Below, piece after piece: positions 36,011 through 48,816 of a DNA stretch of 64,000 nucleotides. Origin of the DNA: Methanolobus psychrophilus R15. Lineage in GTDB: Archaea > Halobacteriota > Methanosarcinia > Methanosarcinales > Methanosarcinaceae. The stretch covers positions 1,798,001 through 1,862,000 of the forward strand of contig CP003083.1 in assembly GCA_000306725.1 (NCBI GenBank), written 5' to 3'. The translations under genes were made by a program, and so were the position numbers. The stretch's first letter is position 1. Each line of letters begins with the position of its first letter. Below the pieces are notes generated by a model, which did not search any database, was not told the DNA's origin, and saw only the letters and a list, made by a program, of their open reading frames with translations.

Positions 36011-36430
36011 TTGTCAAAATCGTCCAAGAGAAAACAAGCGCTTGCTCCTTCTGTCCCTTCCATGGAAGAGCCCGTCGAGGCAGGGGCGGTGCAGCCAGAT
36101 ACAGGTGCAGGCGCCGCGAAACCTGTTATTAAGGTAAAGACTCCCGAGGAGAGAAAACAGGCACACATAGAGGGTATAATAAAGACAGCAGTTGCATCTA
36201 TCATTGGTATCATAGCCGGTATACTGGCTTATACTCAGTTTGGTGTCGGTGATGAGATAAGGTGGTATGCAGTGCTCATTATCGTTGCTGCTCTTGCTTA
36301 TTATGCACAGAAGCTGATTTTCCCGCTCATTAAGATCGATACCAAGGAGTTCGGTTTCAAGGATTGGTTCTTTGTTGAGTTCCTCGTCATAGATTTCTGT
36401 CTTGTGACATGGACGCTGCTTCTGAATTGA
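36011..36430 (+). CDS. Small membrane protein, possibly archaeal EMC6-like
   Basis: 139 residues starting with TTG at 36011, supported by AGGAGA at 35998-36003. A polar, Pro/Ala-rich N-terminus (about 1-50) is followed by three hydrophobic helices (TAVASIIGIIAGILAYTQF, WYAVLIIVAALAYYAQKLIF and FFVEFLVIDFCLVTWTLLL). A resemblance to archaeal EMC6-like three-helix proteins is possible but uncertain. A TATA-like box lies at 35945-35955. It precedes the RLI gene by 48 bases. Confidence 0.7.
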   Translation: MSKSSKRKQALAPSVPSMEEPVEAGAVQPDTGAGAAKPVIKVKTPEERKQAHIEGIIKTAVASIIGIIAGILAYTQFGVGDEIRWYAVLIIVAALAYYAQKLIFPLIKIDTKEFGFKDWFFVEFLVIDFCLVTWTLLLN

Positions 36431-36478: not shown

Positions 36479-38248
36479 ATGCGAATAGCCATATTGAACA
36501 AGGACAGGTGCCAGCCAAGGCGCTGCAGTCATGAATGTGAAAAGTACTGTCCCAGGGTAAGGACAGGGGACGAAACCATCGTTTTCCCGGAAGGCGGCGG
36601 AAAGCCGATCATCTCGGAAGAGCTCTGCGTAGGTTGCGGTATCTGTATCAACAGGTGCCCTTTCGATGCTATTATGATCATCGGCCTTCCGGAAGAGCTG
36701 AAAGAACCCACTCACAGGTACGGAGCAAATGCTTTTGCGCTTTATGGCCTGCCGGTTCCTCAGGTGGGCAGGGTCACAGGTATTCTGGGTCCTAACGGCA
36801 TCGGAAAAAGTACGGCGGTGCAGATACTGTCAGGTGCCCTTATACCCAACTTCGGAGATGGCGCAGGTGACTGGGAAAATGTGCTCCGGCATTACGCGGG
36901 CACAGCTCTGCATGACTACTTCAGTGACGTGGCTGACGGCAATACGAAGGTCTCCCAGAAGCCCCAGTATGTGGATATGATCCCCAAGGCCTTTAAAGGG
37001 AAAGCCAGTGAACTGCTTGACAGGACCGACGAGCGTGGCGTTCTCGGGGAACTGATAGAAAAGCTTGGCCTGTCTCCTGTTATTGACAGGAATATATCCG
37101 AGCTTAGTGGAGGAGAACTCCAGAGAGTAGCCATTGCAGCATGTGCTGCAAGGGACGCTGACTTCTATTTCTTTGACGAGATCAGCCCCTATCTTGATAT
37201 ATACCAGCGCATCAACTCCGCCCAGCTTATCCAGGAAATAGCCAGGGATAAAGCGGTGCTTGTTGTCGAGCACGACCTGGCCATCCTTGACATGCTGGCA
37301 GATGTTGTGCATGTGGCGTACGGGCAGCCGGGAGCCTATGGTGTCATAACCTATCCAAAAGGTGTGCGTATCGCAATCAACCAGTATCTTAAGGGTTACC
37401 TGCCCGAGGAGAACGTACGTATCAGGCCCGATGCCATAAAGTTTGAGGTGCATCCTCCGCGTGTAGGATCAGATATTGCGACCCTGGTAAATTACGATCA
37501 TTTCTCCAAGAAATACGGGAATGGTTTTTCTCTTGAGACTGATAGCGGCTCCCTTAAACAGGGTGAAGTTCTGGGAATAGTCGGACCCAACGGTATCGGT
37601 AAATCCACTTTTGTAAAGATACTGGCCGGAGAGGTCGACCCGGATGAAGGCAAGATGGACCTGGGCATCACTATTTCCTATAAGCCTCAATATATCAAGC
37701 CTGATGTCTCCATGCAGGTGCAGTACTTCCTGCGTGGCGTCTCCCGCAAGTTCGATACAAGCTATTTCCAGTCCGAAGTAGCCAAACCCATGCAGCTTGA
37801 GCCCCTGTATGAACGTGATCTTAAGGACCTCAGTGGTGGAGAGCTCCAGAGGGTAGCCATTGCAGCCTGCCTGTGCAGGGATGCAGACATGTATATCCTT
37901 GACGAGCCAAGCGCCCACCTGGATGTCGAACAGCGCTCCATGACTACCAGGGTGATCAAGAGATTTGCCGAGAACAGCGGTAAGACTGCCATGGTGGTCG
38001 ACCACGACATCTATTTGATAGACATGCTTAGCGAGCGCCTCATAGTCTTTGAAGGTGAGCCTGCAGTCAACGGTAAGGCTCACCGGCCTTTCAGCATGCA
38101 GGATGGCATGAACAAGTTCCTGGCGAACCTGCATATCACCTTCAGGCGTGATGAGGATACATCCCGGCCCAGGGTTAACAAACCGGAATCAAGGCTTGAC
38201 AGGGAGCAGAAGGCCAGCGGGGAGTATTATTACCATAATCTCGAGTAA
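36479..38248 (+). CDS. Ribosome biogenesis/recycling ATPase RLI (ABCE1)
   Basis: Splits ribosomes after termination. 589 residues. The N-terminal Fe-S domain has CQPRRCSHECEKYC and CVGCGICINRCPFDA. Two ABC ATPase domains each have Walker A GPNGIGKST and signature LSGGELQRVAIAA; Walker B sequences are FDEISPYLD and LDEPSAHLD. Length and motif set are those of canonical ABCE1. Confidence 0.97.
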   Translation: MRIAILNKDRCQPRRCSHECEKYCPRVRTGDETIVFPEGGGKPIISEELCVGCGICINRCPFDAIMIIGLPEELKEPTHRYGANAFALYGLPVPQVGRVTGILGPNGIGKSTAVQILSGALIPNFGDGAGDWENVLRHYAGTALHDYFSDVADGNTKVSQKPQYVDMIPKAFKGKASELLDRTDERGVLGELIEKLGLSPVIDRNISELSGGELQRVAIAACAARDADFYFFDEISPYLDIYQRINSAQLIQEIARDKAVLVVEHDLAILDMLADVVHVAYGQPGAYGVITYPKGVRIAINQYLKGYLPEENVRIRPDAIKFEVHPPRVGSDIATLVNYDHFSKKYGNGFSLETDSGSLKQGEVLGIVGPNGIGKSTFVKILAGEVDPDEGKMDLGITISYKPQYIKPDVSMQVQYFLRGVSRKFDTSYFQSEVAKPMQLEPLYERDLKDLSGGELQRVAIAACLCRDADMYILDEPSAHLDVEQRSMTTRVIKRFAENSGKTAMVVDHDIYLIDMLSERLIVFEGEPAVNGKAHRPFSMQDGMNKFLANLHITFRRDEDTSRPRVNKPESRLDREQKASGEYYYHNLE

Positions 38249-38407: not shown

Positions 38408-38689
38408 ATGTTATCAAAGATACCGGTGGACCTTTCCAAAGTCGATCAGAAGGATATAAACAAAGAGATATTAAGGGCGGCAATAGTTGCCGAACTGGAT
38501 GCCATCAATCTCTATGAGCAAATGGCAGGTCTCACAGACAACGATGAAGTAAAGAGGGTCCTTATGGATGTTGCACTTGAAGAGAAGACCCATGTGGGCG
38601 AGTTCCAGACTTTGCTCTTAAGGGCTGATGAGCAGCAGAAAGAGGAACTCAAGGCAGGGGAAAAAGAGGTCGAGGAGCTTTCAAAGTAA
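38408..38689 (+). CDS. Small ferritin-like protein A
   Basis: 93 residues, mostly two long helices. The sequence EILRAAIVAELDAINLYEQM contains an ExxxE-type helix and ALEEKTHVGEFQTLLL an ExxH-type helix, the ligand pattern of the ferritin/rubrerythrin superfamily. It is only half the size of a four-helix ferritin, so it probably dimerises to form a di-iron site, as encapsulated ferritins do. The tail is Glu/Lys-rich. It is followed after 14 bases by a paralog. Confidence 0.75.
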   Translation: MLSKIPVDLSKVDQKDINKEILRAAIVAELDAINLYEQMAGLTDNDEVKRVLMDVALEEKTHVGEFQTLLLRADEQQKEELKAGEKEVEELSK

Positions 38690-38703: not shown

Positions 38704-38979
38704 ATGTTATCAGAGATACCTATTAACCTGCAGATGGTGAATAAAGAGGACCTTGATAAGGAGATAATGAGAGCTGCCATGATTGCAGAACTGGATGCTG
38801 TGAACCTGTACGAATCAATGGCCTCGCTCACTGATAGCGAGGATCTTAAAGTGATCCTCCTGGATGTCGCCAAAGAGGAAAAGGTCCATGTAGCAATGTT
38901 TCAGACAGTGCTCATGGAAGTTGACAGGGAATACCTGAAGATCATGGCAGATTACGCTCTAGGAAAAGGGAGGATGTGA
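38704..38979 (+). CDS. Small ferritin-like protein B
   Basis: 91 residues, clearly a paralog of the preceding gene (both open MLS-IP and share EIxRAAxIAELDAxNLYExM and AKEEKVHVxxFQT). The C-terminus differs, lacking the charged tail. The tandem arrangement suggests hetero- or homo-oligomer partners for iron or peroxide handling. No encapsulin shell gene is adjacent in the window. Confidence 0.75.
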   Translation: MLSEIPINLQMVNKEDLDKEIMRAAMIAELDAVNLYESMASLTDSEDLKVILLDVAKEEKVHVAMFQTVLMEVDREYLKIMADYALGKGRM

Positions 38980-39391: not shown

Positions 39392-39808
39392 TCATTTGCC
39401 TGATGGTCCGCGTTTCAGGAACACATTCCTTATCTTGAAGATAATATTACTACCCTTTTTATGTGCTCCCTCAGATGCACCTGAGGCCTTTATTTCTTCC
39501 TTTCTTCTCTTTCCTTTTGTAAGATACCAGGTAAGGAATTCAGTATAGAGGATAATTCCTGTCAGTGTTGACCACATCATTAGAAGTATATGGAAATTGT
39601 TGACAGGCACCAGACCTTTTGCAAAAAGGAAATGCTCGTATGAGAGGAAAGCCACAGATGTGCCGGGCATTATGATAACTGCAAACAGAGGCACAGCTAC
39701 CAGGACCAGCATCGCCAGCCGGGATGATATCTTTATAAGTATGAACAGCACGGTGAGTGCAAAAGTGATAAAAAGCATTGCACCCCCTATAAAAGCCAGA
39801 ATCTCCAT
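39392..39808 (-). CDS. Unidentified membrane protein of the ABC export locus
   Basis: 138 residues with three predicted membrane helices (about 3-25, 28-50 and 72-96) and a basic cytoplasmic tail (KGKRRKEEIKAS). No family is recognised. It begins 23 bases after the large surface-protein gene and is followed 9 bases later by the TM2-like gene, so it is very likely in the same operon. Confidence 0.7.
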   Translation of the reverse strand: MEILAFIGGAMLFITFALTVLFILIKISSRLAMLVLVAVPLFAVIIMPGTSVAFLSYEHFLFAKGLVPVNNFHILLMMWSTLTGIILYTEFLTWYLTKGKRRKEEIKASGASEGAHKKGSNIIFKIRNVFLKRGPSGK

Positions 39809-39831: not shown

Positions 39832-41673
39832 TCATCTGTAAACACCCCTGATAGCTAAATACATAAGAGCCGGTATGATCGCAAGCAATGAGAACAGGGT
39901 GATAAAAGCAGATAGCAGGAAGCCGGCAGCCTCAATGCGTGTCAACTCAGCATTTCCAGTGTCCGGGATTTCGCCGGTCAGTGCATTTAACGAACTCGGC
40001 TTTGCTTCATTGCTTATCTGATTATGTTCAGTAGTGAGTACATCATCGATGTAGATCACAGGAGTATCGGAAACGGCACTGTACTGTTTTCCCTCCACGT
40101 CAGTGCAATCTGCCCTGGCAGCAGGCAACATGACGTTTCCGGCTCTCCCGGCCTTTACAACATAGCTGATCTTCTTTGATGCACCTGCTTCAAGGTCTCC
40201 TTCCCATAAGAGCTGGCCTGAAATTAAGGAAAGCCCCCCGGGAACACTGTCAGCAAGGGTAATGCGGACATTGCTGTTTCCTGCATTCAATGCGGTTACA
40301 ACTATCTCGGTCATCTCTCCGGTATACAGGTAGCTGGAAACAGTACTCTTCTCAACAATGACTTTCGATCCCCTGACAATGAAAGCATCTGTAAGGGGGC
40401 TGGATTCCACAATATATGTTTCTCCTTCGTCTTTCCACTGAGCCGTCGCGGGCCTGAAAGTGAAACTGCCTGCTTCAGTTGGCTTTGCAATGTAGCTGAT
40501 CTCTTTTGTAGCACCGGCATCAAGCAACACTGTCCATTCCGTTCCCTCCACGCCTTCAGGGATCATTGATGATGGCAGTTCGTCCCGTACTTCCAGAGTT
40601 GTCCTGTAGCCTGCCGTGTTCTTAAGTGTGAGCGTTATCATGAAATGCCCGTCAGTTCCCATTTCACTGTCCTTTGGGGATTTCCTGACAGCTTCCACCT
40701 TTTTCTCGATAGAGATGTAGGGCCTGACCTGTACTTCAAAAGATGCTGGCTCTGAGTATGCTTTACCCTTGTAATCATGTCCTGTAACCTGGGATTCTAT
40801 CAGTATGTTCCTGGTGACAGGAGTTACAGGGGTTCTGACAGGCACAATGAACTTCTTCACTTTCAGCGGATCAAGAACTGCCTGCTGGAGTTGTGGTTCC
40901 CCAACCACTCCTGCTGAGGAACTGGTTGTCAGGGTAATACCATGCAGTGGAATAGTGCCGCTATTGGTGAGGGTTAATACGTACGATATATCCTCATTTG
41001 AGCTATAGTCTGTCTTGTCTGTCAGGATATCGACTGTTAATGCGGGCGCACCCGGCCTGAAAGTCTCAATGGATACATCTCTGGTGTTTTGATTGATATA
41101 GATGACACGGACCATGAACTCGCCGGTGAATTTCCTGTAGCTGCCCGATTGGTATGTTTCTTCAAAAACACCATTCTTACCTTCTATGCTGACAAGAGCG
41201 CCGCTCTCACCAACTTCTTTGAGTTTCACACGGTAACTGCCATCCTCCAGTGTGTCACCAGTTTTCATGTTTGTTTTCGGAACGCTTGTGACCCAGACCC
41301 TTTCCGATTTCTGTTTATATGTCTCCAGTGAAACAATGCCCGAGTTAATACTAAGGACATTGATCTTCAGTTCATTATCATAGATATGCTCACTGTTTGC
41401 AGAGGCATCCATGAAGAATGATCTCTTGAAGTCCCTGTTGCGGTAAACAAGAACTATGGCAGAAGGTTCAGCACTATCCATATCTACAGAATGTACTTTA
41501 ACTGTGAACCCTTCGAGTTCCGCTCTGTTTCCGGCAGCAAGTTCGTAGGTACCCTGGAATATCCATAGGTTCTCATTCTGGATATCGTAGGCACTGACCG
41601 GATACACTAAAGCTGGTAGCATTGCGATTGCAAGGATCAGGACAGTCAGTGTTCTCACAGCCATTTGGAGCAT
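39832..41673 (-). CDS. Large exported, membrane-anchored protein with repeated CARDB-like beta domains
   Basis: 613 residues. A signal peptide (1-28) is followed by an N-terminal beta domain and several CARDB/DUF11-like modules (FEVQVRPYISIEKKVEAVRK, VSSYLYTGEMTEIVVTALNA, GGLSLISGQLLWEGDLEAGA). A C-terminal membrane helix (about 588-608) ends in a short basic tail. Archaeal COG1361-type surface proteins look like this. It lies 17 bases downstream of the ABC permease, which suggests it is an extracytoplasmic partner of that transporter. Confidence 0.8.
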   Translation of the reverse strand: MLQMAVRTLTVLILAIAMLPALVYPVSAYDIQNENLWIFQGTYELAAGNRAELEGFTVKVHSVDMDSAEPSAIVLVYRNRDFKRSFFMDASANSEHIYDNELKINVLSINSGIVSLETYKQKSERVWVTSVPKTNMKTGDTLEDGSYRVKLKEVGESGALVSIEGKNGVFEETYQSGSYRKFTGEFMVRVIYINQNTRDVSIETFRPGAPALTVDILTDKTDYSSNEDISYVLTLTNSGTIPLHGITLTTSSSAGVVGEPQLQQAVLDPLKVKKFIVPVRTPVTPVTRNILIESQVTGHDYKGKAYSEPASFEVQVRPYISIEKKVEAVRKSPKDSEMGTDGHFMITLTLKNTAGYRTTLEVRDELPSSMIPEGVEGTEWTVLLDAGATKEISYIAKPTEAGSFTFRPATAQWKDEGETYIVESSPLTDAFIVRGSKVIVEKSTVSSYLYTGEMTEIVVTALNAGNSNVRITLADSVPGGLSLISGQLLWEGDLEAGASKKISYVVKAGRAGNVMLPAARADCTDVEGKQYSAVSDTPVIYIDDVLTTEHNQISNEAKPSSLNALTGEIPDTGNAELTRIEAAGFLLSAFITLFSLLAIIPALMYLAIRGVYR

Positions 41674-41690
41674 ATATGTATTTTTATCTT

Positions 41691-42800
41691 TTAATTGTTT
41701 TTATATGTCTTTTTCACCGTGGCAACTGTAAGCATGCACAGCGCCAAGGCCACTAACGTATAGAGGCCAACCCAGAGGGCTGATTCGGATGCACCTATAC
41801 TATCGATCGAGAGTCTTGTTACAAGATTGAGCGGTGAATTTGTGAACAGGTAGGAGGCCATGAACAGGAAGATGAGCACCATGGAATACAGAAGCTGGGC
41901 AACGCCTCTCTCCCTGAAAATGACAGATATGATGCTGCTCGTCAGGACAAGTATCAGCCCGATAAGCGTAACCATGAGCAGTATCGTGAAGAAATTCATG
42001 ATGGCAATCCTGTTCATACTCAATAGCAGCATCCATGCAAGAGCCTGCAGTGGCACAATGGCGACAGCAACAAGCACCTTCCCGCTAACTATTTCCAGCA
42101 TGGACGCGGGAGTGACAAGCAGTAATTCCATTGTCTTCCTTTCGAACTCCTCGGTAATGAAGTCAATAACAAGCCCTCCTGAAATGAACGCCGGTGTAAA
42201 TACCAATAGTGGGAGCAGTGCAACGTAAATGAACTCGAAATAAGTGGATGAGGTCTTTATACCTCTCTTGTTGATGTTGACCTCTATCGGGGAATATCCT
42301 GGCAGGCGCTGGGTCCTTATGTCACGCACATGCTGTTCAAACTTTTCAAGTGGCTCTTTTAACTGAAGTGATATCAGGGTAGCCTTAATTTCCGACTTGG
42401 GAAGATATATGTCCACGTTCAGTATATCCGTCCCTTCCGGGGGGCCGGGAGGGGCTATTACTATGGCGTCGACCCTGTGTTCATAGAAGTCCCCGTAAGC
42501 AGGTGTCAGGTCACTGTACAGGCGGGTATTGATCTTACTTTCCTGAAGCAGCTTGTACAGTTCATTTTCTTCAGTTCCGACAACTGCCACGCTTATGCCC
42601 TGCATCTCTATATCACCCATGATCGTGGGATCGTAGAACGAAGTGAGCCCTATGACAAGAAATGTTGAGAATGATGCTATGAAAAGCTGGATCAGTAAGG
42701 AAAGTATGAACGTTTTCTCACGCATGAGCTCGCCTACTTCCTTTTTAGCGATACTCCTTACTTTTTTGCAATATCTTGCACGCTTAGCCAAAAAGAACAC
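41691..42800 (-). CDS. ABC-2 family transporter permease
   Basis: 369 residues. One N-terminal helix (about 30-55) and a large extracytoplasmic domain are followed by five C-terminal helices, the NatB/ABC-2 type 3 layout. FITEEFERKTMELLLVTPAS is the family hallmark coupling segment. It overlaps the upstream permease-protease gene by 17 bases. The ATPase is encoded divergently from 44972. Confidence 0.9.
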   Translation of the reverse strand: MFFLAKRARYCKKVRSIAKKEVGELMREKTFILSLLIQLFIASFSTFLVIGLTSFYDPTIMGDIEMQGISVAVVGTEENELYKLLQESKINTRLYSDLTPAYGDFYEHRVDAIVIAPPGPPEGTDILNVDIYLPKSEIKATLISLQLKEPLEKFEQHVRDIRTQRLPGYSPIEVNINKRGIKTSSTYFEFIYVALLPLLVFTPAFISGGLVIDFITEEFERKTMELLLVTPASMLEIVSGKVLVAVAIVPLQALAWMLLLSMNRIAIMNFFTILLMVTLIGLILVLTSSIISVIFRERGVAQLLYSMVLIFLFMASYLFTNSPLNLVTRLSIDSIGASESALWVGLYTLVALALCMLTVATVKKTYKNN

Positions 42801-44598
42801 CTCTGAGAATGAAAAGATTGTATGCGCTATGGACCACGGTTGCCAGTATCACTGAGAGCAGGTATCTCCTGGTACCGAACCTGTACATTACTATCGAACT
42901 GACCGCCGCAGTCGACATGTGCAGCAGGAGGGGAATTAGCAGGAGCGTGCCCATTGTCATCACTGCCCCAAATGCGGAACTTGCAATGGGCGCCAGAGTA
43001 AGGACGGCAACTGCCTTTTCTCCGACAAAGAAGCCTGTACCTGAAAGGATAGCAAGCCTGAGAGCGTTTTTCATAGTGACCAGCTGAAGCTTTCTTTTGA
43101 AGATTGTGTATATTCCGGCTGATTTGACCAGTTCTTCTGCCATCGCAGAAAGTGCTATCATCACGATGACAGAATGCGGGGCCGGCAGGTTGAACAGCAT
43201 GACGATCAGCATCAATTGAGTCATGTAAACGAACGGGATGAAGATAATGCTCAGCAGGAAAACAGAGCCGTATGGGTTCAGAAGGAAAATCTCCAGGCAA
43301 TCTGTTATCTTCTCTGATACTGCTTTCTGTGTGAAGAGGTCCTCTTCCCTGTATATATAGGTCCCGAATAAAAAGGCGGAAAACGCGACAAAATAGAATG
43401 GCAGGGTTGAGAACAGATATGTGCCGATCTGCAGGGTCTCGCCCTCTATAAGGCGGACAATAAGGGTGATCGGGGAGATGGAACTGATGGCGTGGATATT
43501 TGTAAACATCGCCGGGAAGAAGAGGTATCCGGAGATTATCACTGACAGGAAGACGCTTGTGAAGGTCAGTTCCTTGAAGCTCCTTGAAAGTATGGCGCCG
43601 AAAAATGATAGCGCGAAGAACAGAAGCACAACCGGCAGTATTGCTGCAAGGATCAGTAGTGAGCTCTGTGCTGTTCTAATGTCCGCCGGGATTCCCATGA
43701 TATACATAGTGATAACAGCCTGGATGAGAAGGGTGACGAGGATATAGGGTAATGTTTTACCGATTACGATCTCTCTACTGGACAGAGGCGCGGCAAGTAT
43801 GAGTTCTCCTTTTTTATTGGTGCGCTCATCCATGATACTTGTGGAATAGAACTGCGAGATGAAATATATGGGGAATATGAACAGGAAAGCATAGAGTATC
43901 GCCGTGAATGGAATAGGCGGTGAGAAGAAAGATGGCGTAGAGAGCGTCTGCTTCTGGAAGAATGCCCTTGCTTTGTAATCGTCAAGATCGCTGATGTCCT
44001 GCGGAAGTGTGAACGAGGAGCCTGCATTGAGGTATTCTGTTGTTATTTCTCCTGCAGGGTAACCTTGGTGGGACCGTGCATTAGGGCCGCTATCCATGCC
44101 TGTATCCAGGCTTCCGGCAGCACCCTGTGCACTCAATAGCTGGAAGTTCTGAGGTCTCTCAATATCGTGCACAGTGACCCAGACCGGATGGCTGTTGTTA
44201 ATGTCATTGTAGGAAGTCAGTACGATCTCACGGTATTCCTTTATGGTATTCTCAAGTGCACTTCCGGCAGCAGCTGACTTGGGATTATCTCCAAGATATA
44301 CATTATTACCGATAATTACGAAATCTGCTCCGTACAGGTAGAACTGGGTGGCATCATATATTGTGACAGGCAGATAACTGAATCTCTGGTCACTTTCAAG
44401 TATGGGGCGAAGTGCAGGTTCTGTAGATGCCGCAGTGTATATTTTCTGGTTCATGCTCATCTGTGTCTGTGCGGCTGCAAAGGATGCTGCTATGACCAGT
44501 GCCAGGGTAAGTGTCAGCAATATGGCTGACCTTGAATCGAATTTGAGTTTGGACCTGAAAAACTCCCATTTTGCTATCGTTAACCATCCGGACATCAC
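42784..44598 (-). CDS. ABC-2 permease fused to a PrsW-type intramembrane protease
   Basis: 604 residues. The first about 420 form an ABC-2 permease: N-terminal helix (about 27-45), large outer domain, and helices with ERTNKKGELILAAPLSSREI. The C-terminal about 160 residues are a separate membrane domain with the PrsW/CPBP-like motif set: MAEELVK (E488, E489, K492), GTGFFVGEK (E527), LLHMSTA (H560) and VVHSAYN (H590). Those positions match the glutamate and histidine motifs of glutamic intramembrane proteases. The protein could export and process a peptide. It is the first gene of the five-gene minus-strand operon. Confidence 0.82.
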   Translation of the reverse strand: MMSGWLTIAKWEFFRSKLKFDSRSAILLTLTLALVIAASFAAAQTQMSMNQKIYTAASTEPALRPILESDQRFSYLPVTIYDATQFYLYGADFVIIGNNVYLGDNPKSAAAGSALENTIKEYREIVLTSYNDINNSHPVWVTVHDIERPQNFQLLSAQGAAGSLDTGMDSGPNARSHQGYPAGEITTEYLNAGSSFTLPQDISDLDDYKARAFFQKQTLSTPSFFSPPIPFTAILYAFLFIFPIYFISQFYSTSIMDERTNKKGELILAAPLSSREIVIGKTLPYILVTLLIQAVITMYIMGIPADIRTAQSSLLILAAILPVVLLFFALSFFGAILSRSFKELTFTSVFLSVIISGYLFFPAMFTNIHAISSISPITLIVRLIEGETLQIGTYLFSTLPFYFVAFSAFLFGTYIYREEDLFTQKAVSEKITDCLEIFLLNPYGSVFLLSIIFIPFVYMTQLMLIVMLFNLPAPHSVIVMIALSAMAEELVKSAGIYTIFKRKLQLVTMKNALRLAILSGTGFFVGEKAVAVLTLAPIASSAFGAVMTMGTLLLIPLLLHMSTAAVSSIVMYRFGTRRYLLSVILATVVHSAYNLFILRGVLFG

Positions 44599-44615
44599 TT
44601 TTTATTAGTAATTTA

Positions 44616-44873
44616 TTATATTAATATGTATGTAGTTATTTGGGTATTAGAGGTCATTGTTACATTAGATGGGGAAGTCTCAATGTCAATCTCATGCGTA
44701 TGCCAGTTCGCAGGGTCCGCGTTGATGTTGGAATAAGTTACGGAACCGATTCTGGCAGGCCTGTCAAAAATGACCTTACCATCGCTATATATGATGCTTT
44801 CAACAGGGAAGGTATAAGCATCCGGTTCCCGCAGATGGATGTCTATATCAGGAGCATCCCCGGTAGTAAGCAA
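44616..44873 (-). CDS. Possible small exported protein or gene remnant
   Basis: 85 codons from a TTG at 44873. The inferred sequence (GDAPDIDIHLREPDAYTFPV, IIYSDGKVIFDRPARIG) looks like a genuine beta-rich extracytoplasmic domain. The frame continues upstream through hydrophobic residues (FTLTLISTLL), as in a signal peptide, but reaches a TAG without an ATG. It is immediately upstream of and parallel to the permease-protease gene. It could be a 5'-truncated gene or use a TTG start; no family is recognised. Confidence 0.4.
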   Translation of the reverse strand: MLTTGDAPDIDIHLREPDAYTFPVESIIYSDGKVIFDRPARIGSVTYSNINADPANWHTHEIDIETSPSNVTMTSNTQITTYILI

Positions 44874-44941
44874 AGTACTGATTAAGGTGAGAGTAAACCG
44901 CGGTTGCCACGAACAATCGTATCTCTATTTTTATAACATTG

Positions 44942-44950
44942 CTTATATAT
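44942..44950 (+). promoter_or_regulatory. TATA box placing the ATPase start at GTG 44972
   Basis: CTTATATAT is centred about 26 bases before the GTG at 44972, so transcription should begin at or next to that codon. This points to a leaderless mRNA and rules out the upstream in-frame start at 44939, which lies inside the promoter. Confidence 0.6.
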
Positions 44951-44971
44951 AGTGAAGTATATTCTGTTTAT

Positions 44972-45886
44972 GTGGAACAGAAGATCATCGAAGTAGAAGG
45001 GCTCAGGAAAGAATACGGGGATTTTGTTGCAGTCGAAGACCTCAGTTTCTCTATCTCAAAAGGCGAGATATTCGGAATAGTGGGTCCCAACGGTGCAGGC
45101 AAGACAACCACTTTGAAGATGCTGAGCGGCCTTGTCAGGCCAAGCAGGGGTACTATTACGATGAAGGGACTGGATATCGGTCGGGATGCTGTTAAGATCA
45201 AATCCTTCCTGGGTTTTCTTCCCGAAGAGTCACCCCTGTATGAAGGCATGGAAGTTGATGATTATCTGATGTTCTTTGCGGAGCTCTATGGCGTCGAAAA
45301 GAACGTCGCCAGGAAAAGGATTAATGACCTGCTTTTTGATCTATCTCTCAACGCTGACGGCAAGAAAATAGGCGACCTCTCCAAGGGTATGAAGCGCAAG
45401 GTTGCTATCGCCCGCTCACTGATAAATGACCCTGACATCCTGATATATGATGAGCCGTCTTCAGGCCTTGATCCGATGACCTCCAGGTATATCACGGATT
45501 ACGTGCGGTCTCTCAAGGGGGCGGGTAAAACGATTATTTTCAGTGCCCACAACCTGTACCAGGTTGAAAGCCTGTGTGACAATATCATGATCATGAAGAA
45601 CGGCAGGCTCATTACTCTGGGGACGGCAGCCGATATCCGCGAGGAGTTCGGGCGGATACAGTACCGGCTTGAGTTCAGGGTGGATAATATCGATGATTAT
45701 AGCCTTGCCGAACTGAAAAAGACCGATGATGGCTATGTTGTTATCACCCATGATATCAGCATTATTAACAATACCACCAAATGGGTCGCGTCAAAAGGCG
45801 GGGATATCGTTGAGATGCGTACGATAGTACCTTCGCTGGAAGAGATCTTCCTAGAGCTGATGGGAGTCGAACTGTTCGTAGATTGA
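44972..45886 (+). CDS. ABC transporter ATP-binding protein (ABC-2 type exporter)
   Basis: 304 residues from the GTG at 44972. Walker A is GPNGAGKTT, the signature is LSKGMKRKVAIAR, Walker B is ILIYDEPSSGLD and the switch region is FSAHNLYQVE. The C-terminal 75 residues are the usual NatA/CcmA-like extension. It presumably powers the two permeases encoded divergently at 41.7-44.6 kb, since no other permease is adjacent. Confidence 0.92.
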   Translation: MEQKIIEVEGLRKEYGDFVAVEDLSFSISKGEIFGIVGPNGAGKTTTLKMLSGLVRPSRGTITMKGLDIGRDAVKIKSFLGFLPEESPLYEGMEVDDYLMFFAELYGVEKNVARKRINDLLFDLSLNADGKKIGDLSKGMKRKVAIARSLINDPDILIYDEPSSGLDPMTSRYITDYVRSLKGAGKTIIFSAHNLYQVESLCDNIMIMKNGRLITLGTAADIREEFGRIQYRLEFRVDNIDDYSLAELKKTDDGYVVITHDISIINNTTKWVASKGGDIVEMRTIVPSLEEIFLELMGVELFVD

Positions 45887-45965: not shown

Positions 45966-46451
45966 TTGACTTCTTCACTTAAAAGCATAGATTGCCTCGC
46001 GTCAAGAGGCCATCAATCCATCGGAAGAGATGCATTCCTGTTCTCCAGGGAAATTCATACTTTCATTGCAAGAGAGATGGAGCCATATGGTATAGGTAGC
46101 GGACAGTTTCCTTTCCTGATGCGCCTGCTCCATCACGATGGTATCAGCCAGGAAGTCCTTATAAGAGACCTGAATTGTGACAGGGCCACAGGTACCAGAG
46201 CCATTAACAAGCTGGAAGAGAACGGGTATGTTCTCAGGGAGACAGACCCGCAGGATAAGCGTGCCTACAGGGTATGCCTGACTGACAAATCCAGGCAGCT
46301 GGAGCCGGTAATTAAGCAGATGTCCGTGCTGATCAATGATATTGTATTTGATGGTTTCACCGGGGAAGAAAAAATCCTTTTCGTTCAAATGATAAAGCGG
46401 GCCATAGGCAATCTATCCCGTGAGAACGATGCCAGGAAGGCCGGCAAATGA
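45966..46451 (+). CDS. MarR-family transcriptional regulator
   Basis: 161 residues starting with TTG at 45966. The winged helix is visible in SQEVLIRDLNCDRATGTRAI, NKLEENGYVLRETDPQDKRA and YRVCLTDKSRQL. MarR proteins usually repress efflux genes and are released by the drug. Its stop overlaps the MATE start by 4 bases (ATGA), forming a regulator-efflux operon controlled by the dyad at 45918-45954. Confidence 0.93.
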   Translation: MTSSLKSIDCLASRGHQSIGRDAFLFSREIHTFIAREMEPYGIGSGQFPFLMRLLHHDGISQEVLIRDLNCDRATGTRAINKLEENGYVLRETDPQDKRAYRVCLTDKSRQLEPVIKQMSVLINDIVFDGFTGEEKILFVQMIKRAIGNLSRENDARKAGK

Positions 46452-47848
46452 GAGAGGGAATTGAAGCAGGCACATCCGGTCTGCAGACAATGGCAGGGGA
46501 TCCTAAGCAAGCCATCCTTAAACTGGGCCTGCCGATGATGTTTGCGATGTCCATCCAGACCGTATATAATCTGGTTGACACTTTCTGGGTGTCAGGCCTA
46601 GGATCTGATGCACTTGCAGCAGTAGGTTTTGTTTTTCCATTCTTTTTTGCCTCGATAGCCATCTCCACGGGACTTGGCGTAGGCGGAGGCTCGGCCATAT
46701 CCCGCAGGCTTGGTGCAAAAGATAAGCTGGGGGCTGATAACGTTGCAGTGCACACGATGATCATAATGCTTATTCTATCACTGCTGTTCGCTGTCCCGCT
46801 GTTTATTTTTGCGGAGAGCATCTTCATTTCCATTGGTGCGGGAAGTACAGCAGATATGGCGACTTCATACGGGAAGATCATCTTTGCAGGTACTCTCTTC
46901 ATATTCTTCCCCAACGTTGCAAATGCCATCCTCCGCAGCGAGGGAGACACCAAACGAGCCATGAATGCCATGATCCTTGGGTCCGTACTGAATATCATAC
47001 TGGATCCGATACTGATATACGTGCTTGACATGGGTATAGCCGGTGCTGCATGGGCGACCGTGATATCTCTTGCTGTCACTGCTGTCCTTATGTCCAACTG
47101 GCTCTTTTTCCGCAAGGACACCTACATATCTTTTGATTTCAAGGACTTCAGCTTCGACAGGGGTATCCTGAAAGACATCTTCAGGGTGGGTTTCCCGGCA
47201 TCTGTCCAGCAATCCTCAATGGCTTTGATGATGCTTGTCATGAACATGATACTAATAACAGTCAGTGACACTGATGGGGTGGCTGTCTATACAGTGGGCT
47301 GGCGCGTTGCTACTATTGCTATCGCTCCTCTGATGGGAATCTCGACAGCTGTTGTTACGATGAGCGGATTTGCGTATGGGGAGCGGTCTTACAGTAAGTT
47401 GTCTTCTTCACATCTTTATGCAACAAAGATATCCTTCATTGTGGAAACAGCCATAGCTGCCCTTACTTTCATCCTGGCTCCCCAGATAGCGTATGTTTTC
47501 ACAATGTCAGAAAGTGCTTCCCACATCACCGGCGATCTGGTGATATTCATCAGGATCATCTGCCTGTTCTACCCCATGGTCTCCCTTGGAATGCTCTCGT
47601 CATCGCTCTTCCAGGGAATAGGTAAAGGTGTGAATGCACTTATCGCAACTATTCTGCGTGCTGTCATATTGGTTCCCCTTTTTGCGGCACTGTTCGCTAT
47701 ATACTTCGGGCAGGGGCTTGTTGGTATCTGGTGGGGCATAGTGGTCGGTAATGTCCTTGGGTCACTTGTGATCTTTATCTGGGCACGGTTGCATGTGGGG
47801 GCCTTGCTAAAGAAGGAGTCTGGCTTTTCAACTGCAGAGCCAGTGTGA
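46448..47848 (+). CDS. MATE-family multidrug/sodium antiporter
   Basis: 466 residues with twelve predicted membrane helices in two six-helix halves. Typical MATE sequence includes LGLPMMFAMSIQTVYNLVDT, WVSGLGSDALAAVGFVFPFF and STGLGVGGGSAISRRLGAKD in the first half and GFPASVQQSSMALMMLVMNM in the second. It exports cationic drugs or metabolites using an ion gradient. Translation is coupled to marR. The stop is 79 bases before the second IS5-family copy. Confidence 0.93.
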   Translation: MREGIEAGTSGLQTMAGDPKQAILKLGLPMMFAMSIQTVYNLVDTFWVSGLGSDALAAVGFVFPFFFASIAISTGLGVGGGSAISRRLGAKDKLGADNVAVHTMIIMLILSLLFAVPLFIFAESIFISIGAGSTADMATSYGKIIFAGTLFIFFPNVANAILRSEGDTKRAMNAMILGSVLNIILDPILIYVLDMGIAGAAWATVISLAVTAVLMSNWLFFRKDTYISFDFKDFSFDRGILKDIFRVGFPASVQQSSMALMMLVMNMILITVSDTDGVAVYTVGWRVATIAIAPLMGISTAVVTMSGFAYGERSYSKLSSSHLYATKISFIVETAIAALTFILAPQIAYVFTMSESASHITGDLVIFIRIICLFYPMVSLGMLSSSLFQGIGKGVNALIATILRAVILVPLFAALFAIYFGQGLVGIWWGIVVGNVLGSLVIFIWARLHVGALLKKESGFSTAEPV

Positions 47849-47871: not shown

Positions 47872-48816
47872 TTATGTTATTCCTATATTCAGGTCTCTTG
47901 TGCAGGTCCTGCTCATTTTAAACATCTGAGGATTCAGATTAACCCCTCTTTTTCTTTCCACATTTGTGACAAGCACTTTTCCTGCTTTGAACACTTCCTT
48001 TGCTACTGCATAGACTCTTTCACATGGAACTCGCTGTACACTTATCCTTTCATTTCTGAGAACATCGTTTATTCCTAATGGATGTCCTCTTACCGCTCTT
48101 TGCATTGTTGCTGCAAAACCCTTTGCAACTGCTCCAAAGTATCCTTTGTCACGGTAGACTACTTCACCCACTTCAGATAGATCTACCTGTGAATCATGTA
48201 CTGATGCAGTTGTTGTTTCAAATCTTCTGATCAGTTCATATTCCTTATCAATAATTGTATGAAGCTTGTAGCCAAAATGAGATTTGCCACCTTTTTTTGC
48301 CCAGGTTCCATCTTTGCTTCTAGCTGTTTTAGCATCCTTTCCACGAGGTTCATCAGCTTTAGCATGTCCAGGGTTGGAGTGGATGAATGTGGCATCCTGG
48401 ATCATCCCTTTTTTGATCTTCAATCCAAGAGCATTAAGCTGTTTTTGCATCTCGTCCCATATTTCTTTCTCTTTTCTATTATCGCTAATTCTCTTTCTAA
48501 ATGACCAGACAGTTGTACTGTCTGGAACATATCCAGGAAACCCCAGAAATTTCCTAAAGGATATTCTGTCAATACACTGTCTTTCAAGTTCAGCATCAGA
48601 AAGACCATGCCACTGTTGTAGAACAAGCATTTTAAACATCACAATAACATCAGCTTCAGGCCTGCCGCCTGAAGCTGTTCTGTTCTTGTACATTGATTCC
48701 AGAATTGGACGAAACGGTTTCCAATCAATAAGTGATTCTATTTCTGCAAGCTTGTCTCCAACGGATTGAAGGCGTTTATATTCTTCATTAAGAGCAAAAT
48801 CAGTCAAATCATCCAT
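47872..48816 (-). pseudogene. IS5-family transposase, C-terminus lost by internal deletion
   Basis: Nearly identical to the copy at 7180-8124 through VLVTNVER (288 residues, including D141, D223 and E266), then diverges. The normal C-terminal about 26 residues are replaced by KRGVNLNPQMFKMSRTCTRD and on, read through the IS right end into flanking DNA to a stop at 47872. A deletion of about 182 bp next to the right inverted repeat explains this. Activity is uncertain, but the catalytic residues remain. Confidence 0.92.

Follow-up and report, generated by a model that had tools for sequence, protein, structure and literature searches.

An ABC-2 half-permease joined to a PrsW-type intramembrane protease domain is a conserved archaeal family across Halobacteriota

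Introduction

Characterized PrsW is a site-1 signalling protease tied to antimicrobial peptide resistance (PMC4602095, PMC9263693), and modelling of this protein has described an EExxK motif, an additional histidine in helix 5 that is absent from CAAX proteases, and an HxxxD motif (PMC4602095). Standalone PrsW proteins have no permease attached. In polymorphic toxins, PrsW is joined to a secretion function, lying N-terminally on the toxin (PMC3482391). ABC-2 exporters of the DrrA/NatA/GldA type resemble the locus described here in their ATPase and in their half-permease folds, but the matched families carry no protease on the permease. The closest described layout is that of NF041647, an NCBIfam family named permease subunit/CPBP intramembrane protease, in which the permease (about 3–300) precedes the protease (about 424–635) in a model of 636 positions. 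The principle of joining both activities has thus already been named, in a different branch of the protease superfamily. No paper on a PrsW-permease fusion was found in the open full-text literature, subscription papers being outside the search; a paper on myxosortase was considered as a direct precedent and set aside, since it describes no ABC fusion.

The fusion gene of Methanolobus psychrophilus R15 has the same domain order as NF041647, but its protease is of the PrsW type instead of the CPBP/Rce1 type, and it does not match the model. Among the 100 genomes searched in Halobacteriota, none contained a protein above the NF041647 cut-off. With the PrsW family (PF13367; Bacillus subtilis PrsW) the fusion shares EExxK, FxxxE, the extra histidine of the penultimate helix, and HxxYN, HxxxN replacing the HxxxD of modelled B. 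subtilis PrsW (PMC4602095). As in the polymorphic toxins, PrsW is linked to a secretion function, but in the present fusion it sits at the C-terminus of a transporter and no toxin domain is present. An earlier note on this DNA called the fusion unusual, which is only partly right: the gene is conserved across Halobacteriota, and a family with the same layout had been named before.

Gene organization and layout of the fusion protein

The window is the whole stretch of DNA that was analysed, 64,000 nucleotides of the M. psychrophilus R15 genome (contig CP003083.1), and its relevant features are listed in Table 1. The fusion gene is present as a single copy in the 3.07-Mb host genome. Its reading frame starts with GTG, immediately followed by ATG, and comprises 604 codons without an internal stop. 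Pfam ABC2_membrane_2 and ABC2_membrane_3 score above cut-off on the N-terminal part (residues 22–401), and the four PrsW-like motifs that the earlier note had placed behind an ABC-2 permease in this frame are all present and conserved in the orthologues.

Table 1. Features of the fusion locus, with coordinates within the window
Feature	Coordinates	Strand	Evidence
ABC-2 half-permease and PrsW-type intramembrane protease in one chain, 604 aa	42784..44598	-	
Permease part of the fusion, about residues 1–430	43309..44598	-	Pfam ABC2_membrane_2/3, AF2 helices, Foldseek
PrsW-type domain of the fusion, residues 439–604, five TM helices	42784..43284	-	Motifs, profiles, predicted fold
Second half-permease of the ABC-2 type (NatB-like); its start overlaps the fusion gene's end	41691..42782	-	Pfam ABC2_membrane_3, 4.9e-18
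ABC ATPase (DrrA/GldA/NatA-like), divergent from the fusion gene	44951..45886	+	
Intergenic region, presumed promoter region of the ATPase and fusion genes	44599..44950	.	Position only
Surface protein; signal peptide at the N-terminus, BatD/DUF11-like domains, a single TM helix at the C-terminus	39832..41673	-	
Small membrane protein of 138 aa, encoded by the next gene of the row	39392..39808	-	
TM2-like very small membrane protein (GLGQLNNG), 58 aa	39078..39254	-	

In the full-length AF2 model (mean pLDDT 74.8), the permease part consists of TM1, an extracytoplasmic domain (about 50–140), a disordered linker, and TM2–6, the six predicted helices spanning residues 22–44, 231–260, 274–301, 307–337, 341–364, and 391–415. 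It also contains a cytoplasmic coupling segment (D257-E-R ... G-K-x-x-P-Y), and a charged stretch, REEDLFTQK, separates TM6 from the protease-domain helices. When the full-length model was compared with known structures using Foldseek, ABC-2 type exporters (8k1n, ABCH-9C, TarGH, and Wzm) were among the top matches, none of them with an E-value below 0.1. A solved structure with sequence kinship was found for none of the three proteins or parts searched, i.e. the full-length fusion, its C-terminal domain, and the second permease.

The PrsW-type domain

The motifs of the C-terminal domain are E488-E489-x-x-K492, G522-F-F-x-G-E527-K528, H560, and H590-x-x-Y-N594. In the AF2 model, EExxK is situated within the helix 473–501, E527 in the helix 509–534, and H560 in the helix 551–574. 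E488, E489, K492, E527, K528, H560, and H590 are invariant in all 113 distinct full-length orthologues, a set that was partly recruited with a GEK-containing pattern or the PrsW model. N594 is kept in 111 of them (the others having one D and one gap), and F523 is replaced by Tyr in three. Because of this partial recruitment by motif, the unbiased set is that of the 50 orthologues chosen by overall similarity, and in all 50 the catalytic positions are kept. The larger set is diverse, with a median pairwise identity of 34% and a lowest identity to the Methanolobus fusion of 26%. Since the catalytic positions are invariant across the orthologues, the motifs are not chance matches.

The Methanolobus protein itself falls below the gathering score of Pfam PF13367 (PrsW), which has no match in the whole host genome; a Methanosarcinaceae orthologue passes it with 31.1 bits (cut-off, 23.5), as do fifteen further confirmed orthologues. 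By hhalign, residues 447–603 were aligned to standalone haloarchaeal PrsW with a probability of 95% (E-value, 3e-8); for the C-terminal domain, CPBP proteins from the same genome gave a probability of 5%, and unrelated membrane proteins gave 0.2–2%. Standalone PrsW proteins of the same phylum carry EExxK, GFxxxEN, and HxxYN. Assignment to the CPBP/Rce1 group was rejected on the basis of EExxK in place of EExxxR, the 5% hhalign probability, and the lack of a match to NF041647.

The AlphaFold2 model of the C-terminal domain has a mean pLDDT of 87.5. Its first three Foldseek matches in the PDB are APH-1 of gamma-secretase (5a63_C and 8oqy_C) and a chain of the multipass translocon (7tm3_6), which we take to be TMEM147; a BOS-complex chain, 9c7u_C, follows at rank 9. 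As the E-values of the first three are weak (0.28–0.7; TM-scores, 0.47–0.55), this match rests on ranking and not on significance. APH-1 and TMEM147 belong to the PrsW/APH-1 superfamily but, unlike the fusion, they are subunits of gamma-secretase and the multipass translocon and have no ABC permease. Conservation, profile comparison, and the predicted structure thus all support a PrsW-like nature of the C-terminal domain, as the earlier note had proposed.

In the protease domain, the loops between helices 2 and 3 (FKRKLQLVTMKN) and between helices 4 and 5 (YRFGTRRY) are positively charged and are read as cytoplasmic, which would place the C-terminus of the fusion outside. Based on helix order and the positive-inside rule, we infer that the active-site residues lie near mid-membrane, and this predicted depth is compatible with a cut of the site-1 type.

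The second permease and the ATPase

The earlier note assigned the second permease to the same machine, and this is borne out by gene neighbourhoods. Flanking DNA was long enough at 84 distinct loci; the fusion gene is accompanied by the second permease in 82 of these, by the ATPase in 81, and by both in 80, which indicates that the fusion is one subunit of a heteromeric ABC-2 transporter. The ATPase gene, which the earlier note had left out, is divergent from the fusion gene in 55 loci and on the same strand in 26. Its motifs are intact (Walker A, GPNGAGKT; signature, LSKGMKR; Walker B, ILIYDEP), and it scores 248 bits against TIGR01188, below the cut-off of 312.

The permease part of the fusion and the second permease are homologous (profile comparison, 93%) and have in common a coupling segment, E-R-...-E-L-(L/I)-L-x-x-P. 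The second permease matches only the permease half of NF041647, with 57 bits against a cut-off of 435. In 68 loci, the distances of the permease part, the protease part, the second permease, and the ATPase correlate at 0.87–0.90, which is consistent with joint inheritance of the four parts and would likewise result from shared genome ancestry alone.

Departures from this arrangement were also recorded. Halorussus salinisoli has a lone fusion gene with neither ATPase nor second permease, and an HNH-repeat protein is encoded next but one downstream. In one relative (L050, 9269–13394), the ATPase gene is absent beside the fusion gene, and glycogen-debranching and glucoamylase-like genes are found there instead.

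Distribution in Halobacteriota

The earlier note had suggested a search for the domain order across archaea, and the search made here covered genomes of the order and of the phylum. Of 186 genomes from the order, 76 carry a full-length fusion in a single frame. In Halobacteriota as a whole, 294 genomes were at least 90% complete with no more than 5% contamination, and 172 of these carry it. Almost always there is one match per genome, and few genomes have two or three. Named carriers among the matches listed are Methanolobus, Methanomethylovorans, Methanosalsum, ANME-2c, Candidatus Methanoperedens, Natrinema, Haloterrigena, and Haladaptatus. The best 80 of the 172 matches of a two-motif scan were all archaeal. 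The permease-PrsW fusion is a conserved archaeal family across Halobacteriota. The public annotation of the Haladaptatus orthologue is 'ABC transporter permease subunit', with the protease unmentioned.

Proposed mechanism and alternative explanations

We see about an even chance that the locus encodes a transporter in which a single ATPase serves a pair of dissimilar half-permeases, one of which bears a PrsW-type protease complete in its active-site residues, and that this transporter both moves and cleaves a cargo. ATP hydrolysis by the divergently encoded ATPase would drive the permease pair, which would export a membrane-anchored peptide or protein or pull the cargo out of the membrane; in the course of the transport cycle, the fused protease would cleave this cargo inside the membrane and so release or mature it. 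The export direction is suggested by family resemblance. That the fusion occurs widely and usually as a single copy points towards housekeeping in the cell envelope and away from a mobile bacteriocin or toxin function. The peptide or lipoprotein maturation and export machine envisaged in the earlier note is plausible.

The permease pair might instead serve mainly as a sensor of membrane-active compounds or of stress on the envelope. Its conformational change would activate the PrsW domain, and this domain would then cut a regulatory membrane protein, by analogy with B. subtilis PrsW, which cuts RsiW as a site-1 signalling protease (PMC4602095, PMC9263693). All PrsW residues are kept in the fusion domain, which fits such a role, but the intact ATPase motifs suggest real transport work. 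Moreover, archaea to our knowledge have no sigma factors, and no conserved membrane-bound regulator was found beside the trio of fusion, second permease, and ATPase, and we regard signalling as unlikely.

Quality control, in which the ATPase-driven pair would extract membrane proteins or lipoproteins that are misfolded or surplus and pass them to the fused protease, agrees with the housekeeping-like distribution of usually one copy per genome, with the lack of a fixed cargo gene, and with the covalent joining of permease and protease in every intact gene seen. Nevertheless, we know of no ABC-2 transporter that serves as a protein dislocase of this type, and proteases of the PrsW superfamily usually cut at specific sites, so that this role appears decidedly unlikely. 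The PrsW domain might also be a non-catalytic structural module, like APH-1 in gamma-secretase, and stabilize the permease or recruit cargo. This would fit its best structural matches, since neither APH-1 nor TMEM147 is proteolytic although both belong to the superfamily; however, a scaffold would not need the six core catalytic residues that are invariant in 113 of 113 orthologues, and this role is very improbable. Fusion of separate genes by a sequencing or assembly error has a practically negligible probability: frames are broken in a few metagenome-assembled relatives (L102, L136, and L158), but these breaks fall inside the permease half and not at the domain border, and many genera have the single frame intact, in closed genomes as well as in drafts. 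Adjacent split permease and protease genes, the search for which the earlier note had proposed, were not seen. The superfamily fold match and the conserved single frame thus speak against both a missing PrsW fold and a joining error.

A known anti-phage defence system was rejected as a further candidate, since PADLOC gave no match for the fusion, the second permease, or the surface protein, and only generic ATPase matches for the ATPase.

Returning to the transporter that both moves and cleaves its cargo, recurrence of the fusion with two partner genes across a large archaeal group suggests a conserved, unstudied complex for cutting and moving cargo, and the parallel permease-CPBP fusion suggests that the joining of both activities arose more than once. 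A bolder version, which we offer tentatively and consider unlikely, is an ATP-coupled intramembrane protease: the ABC-2 transporter would actively pull membrane-anchored proteins into a built-in glutamate protease, the whole being a conserved machine by which archaea cut or remove membrane proteins, and permease-CPBP fusions would be its independently evolved counterpart. If the proposed mechanism is true, it would represent a phylum-wide archaeal system in which ATP-driven membrane transport is physically coupled to intramembrane proteolysis. Because the fusion is carried by cultured archaea (Methanolobus and several haloarchaea), such coupling is testable by gene removal and point mutation.

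Clade-specific neighbours and other genes in the window

A search across families for conserved neighbours beyond the trio found none, and hence no conserved cargo gene. Of the neighbours that the earlier note had included in the machine besides the second permease, the surface protein encoded after the second permease (25 loci), the small membrane protein that comes next (19 loci), and the TM2-like protein after it (10 loci) occur in Methanosarcinaceae only, and because they are so confined, they cannot define the general function of the machine. A homologue of the TM2-like protein matches DUF5683. Within this family, the surface protein, encoded in the same direction as the fusion, would be the first candidate for the cargo.

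In Methanoperedens, the ATPase of the trio has as its neighbour a lipoprotein of the DUF5803 family that ends in a TM helix (L037, 9442–10185, and 13 related loci). This lipoprotein family is phylum-wide; it was rejected as a firm partner because it also occurs in genomes without the fusion and elsewhere usually lies tens of kb or more away.

Several other genes in the window were recorded. An EMC6-like archaeal protein (EMC6_arch) is encoded at 36011–36430 (+), directly upstream of an ABCE1/Rli1-type gene (36479–38248). Tandem small proteins are encoded at 38408–38689 and 38704–38979 (+); the first matches encapsulated-ferritin-like/rubrerythrin families, and the second product resembles a duplicate of the first. 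A MarR-like regulator and MATE-like efflux pair (45966–47848) is followed downstream by a transposase-like gene at 47872–48816 (-).
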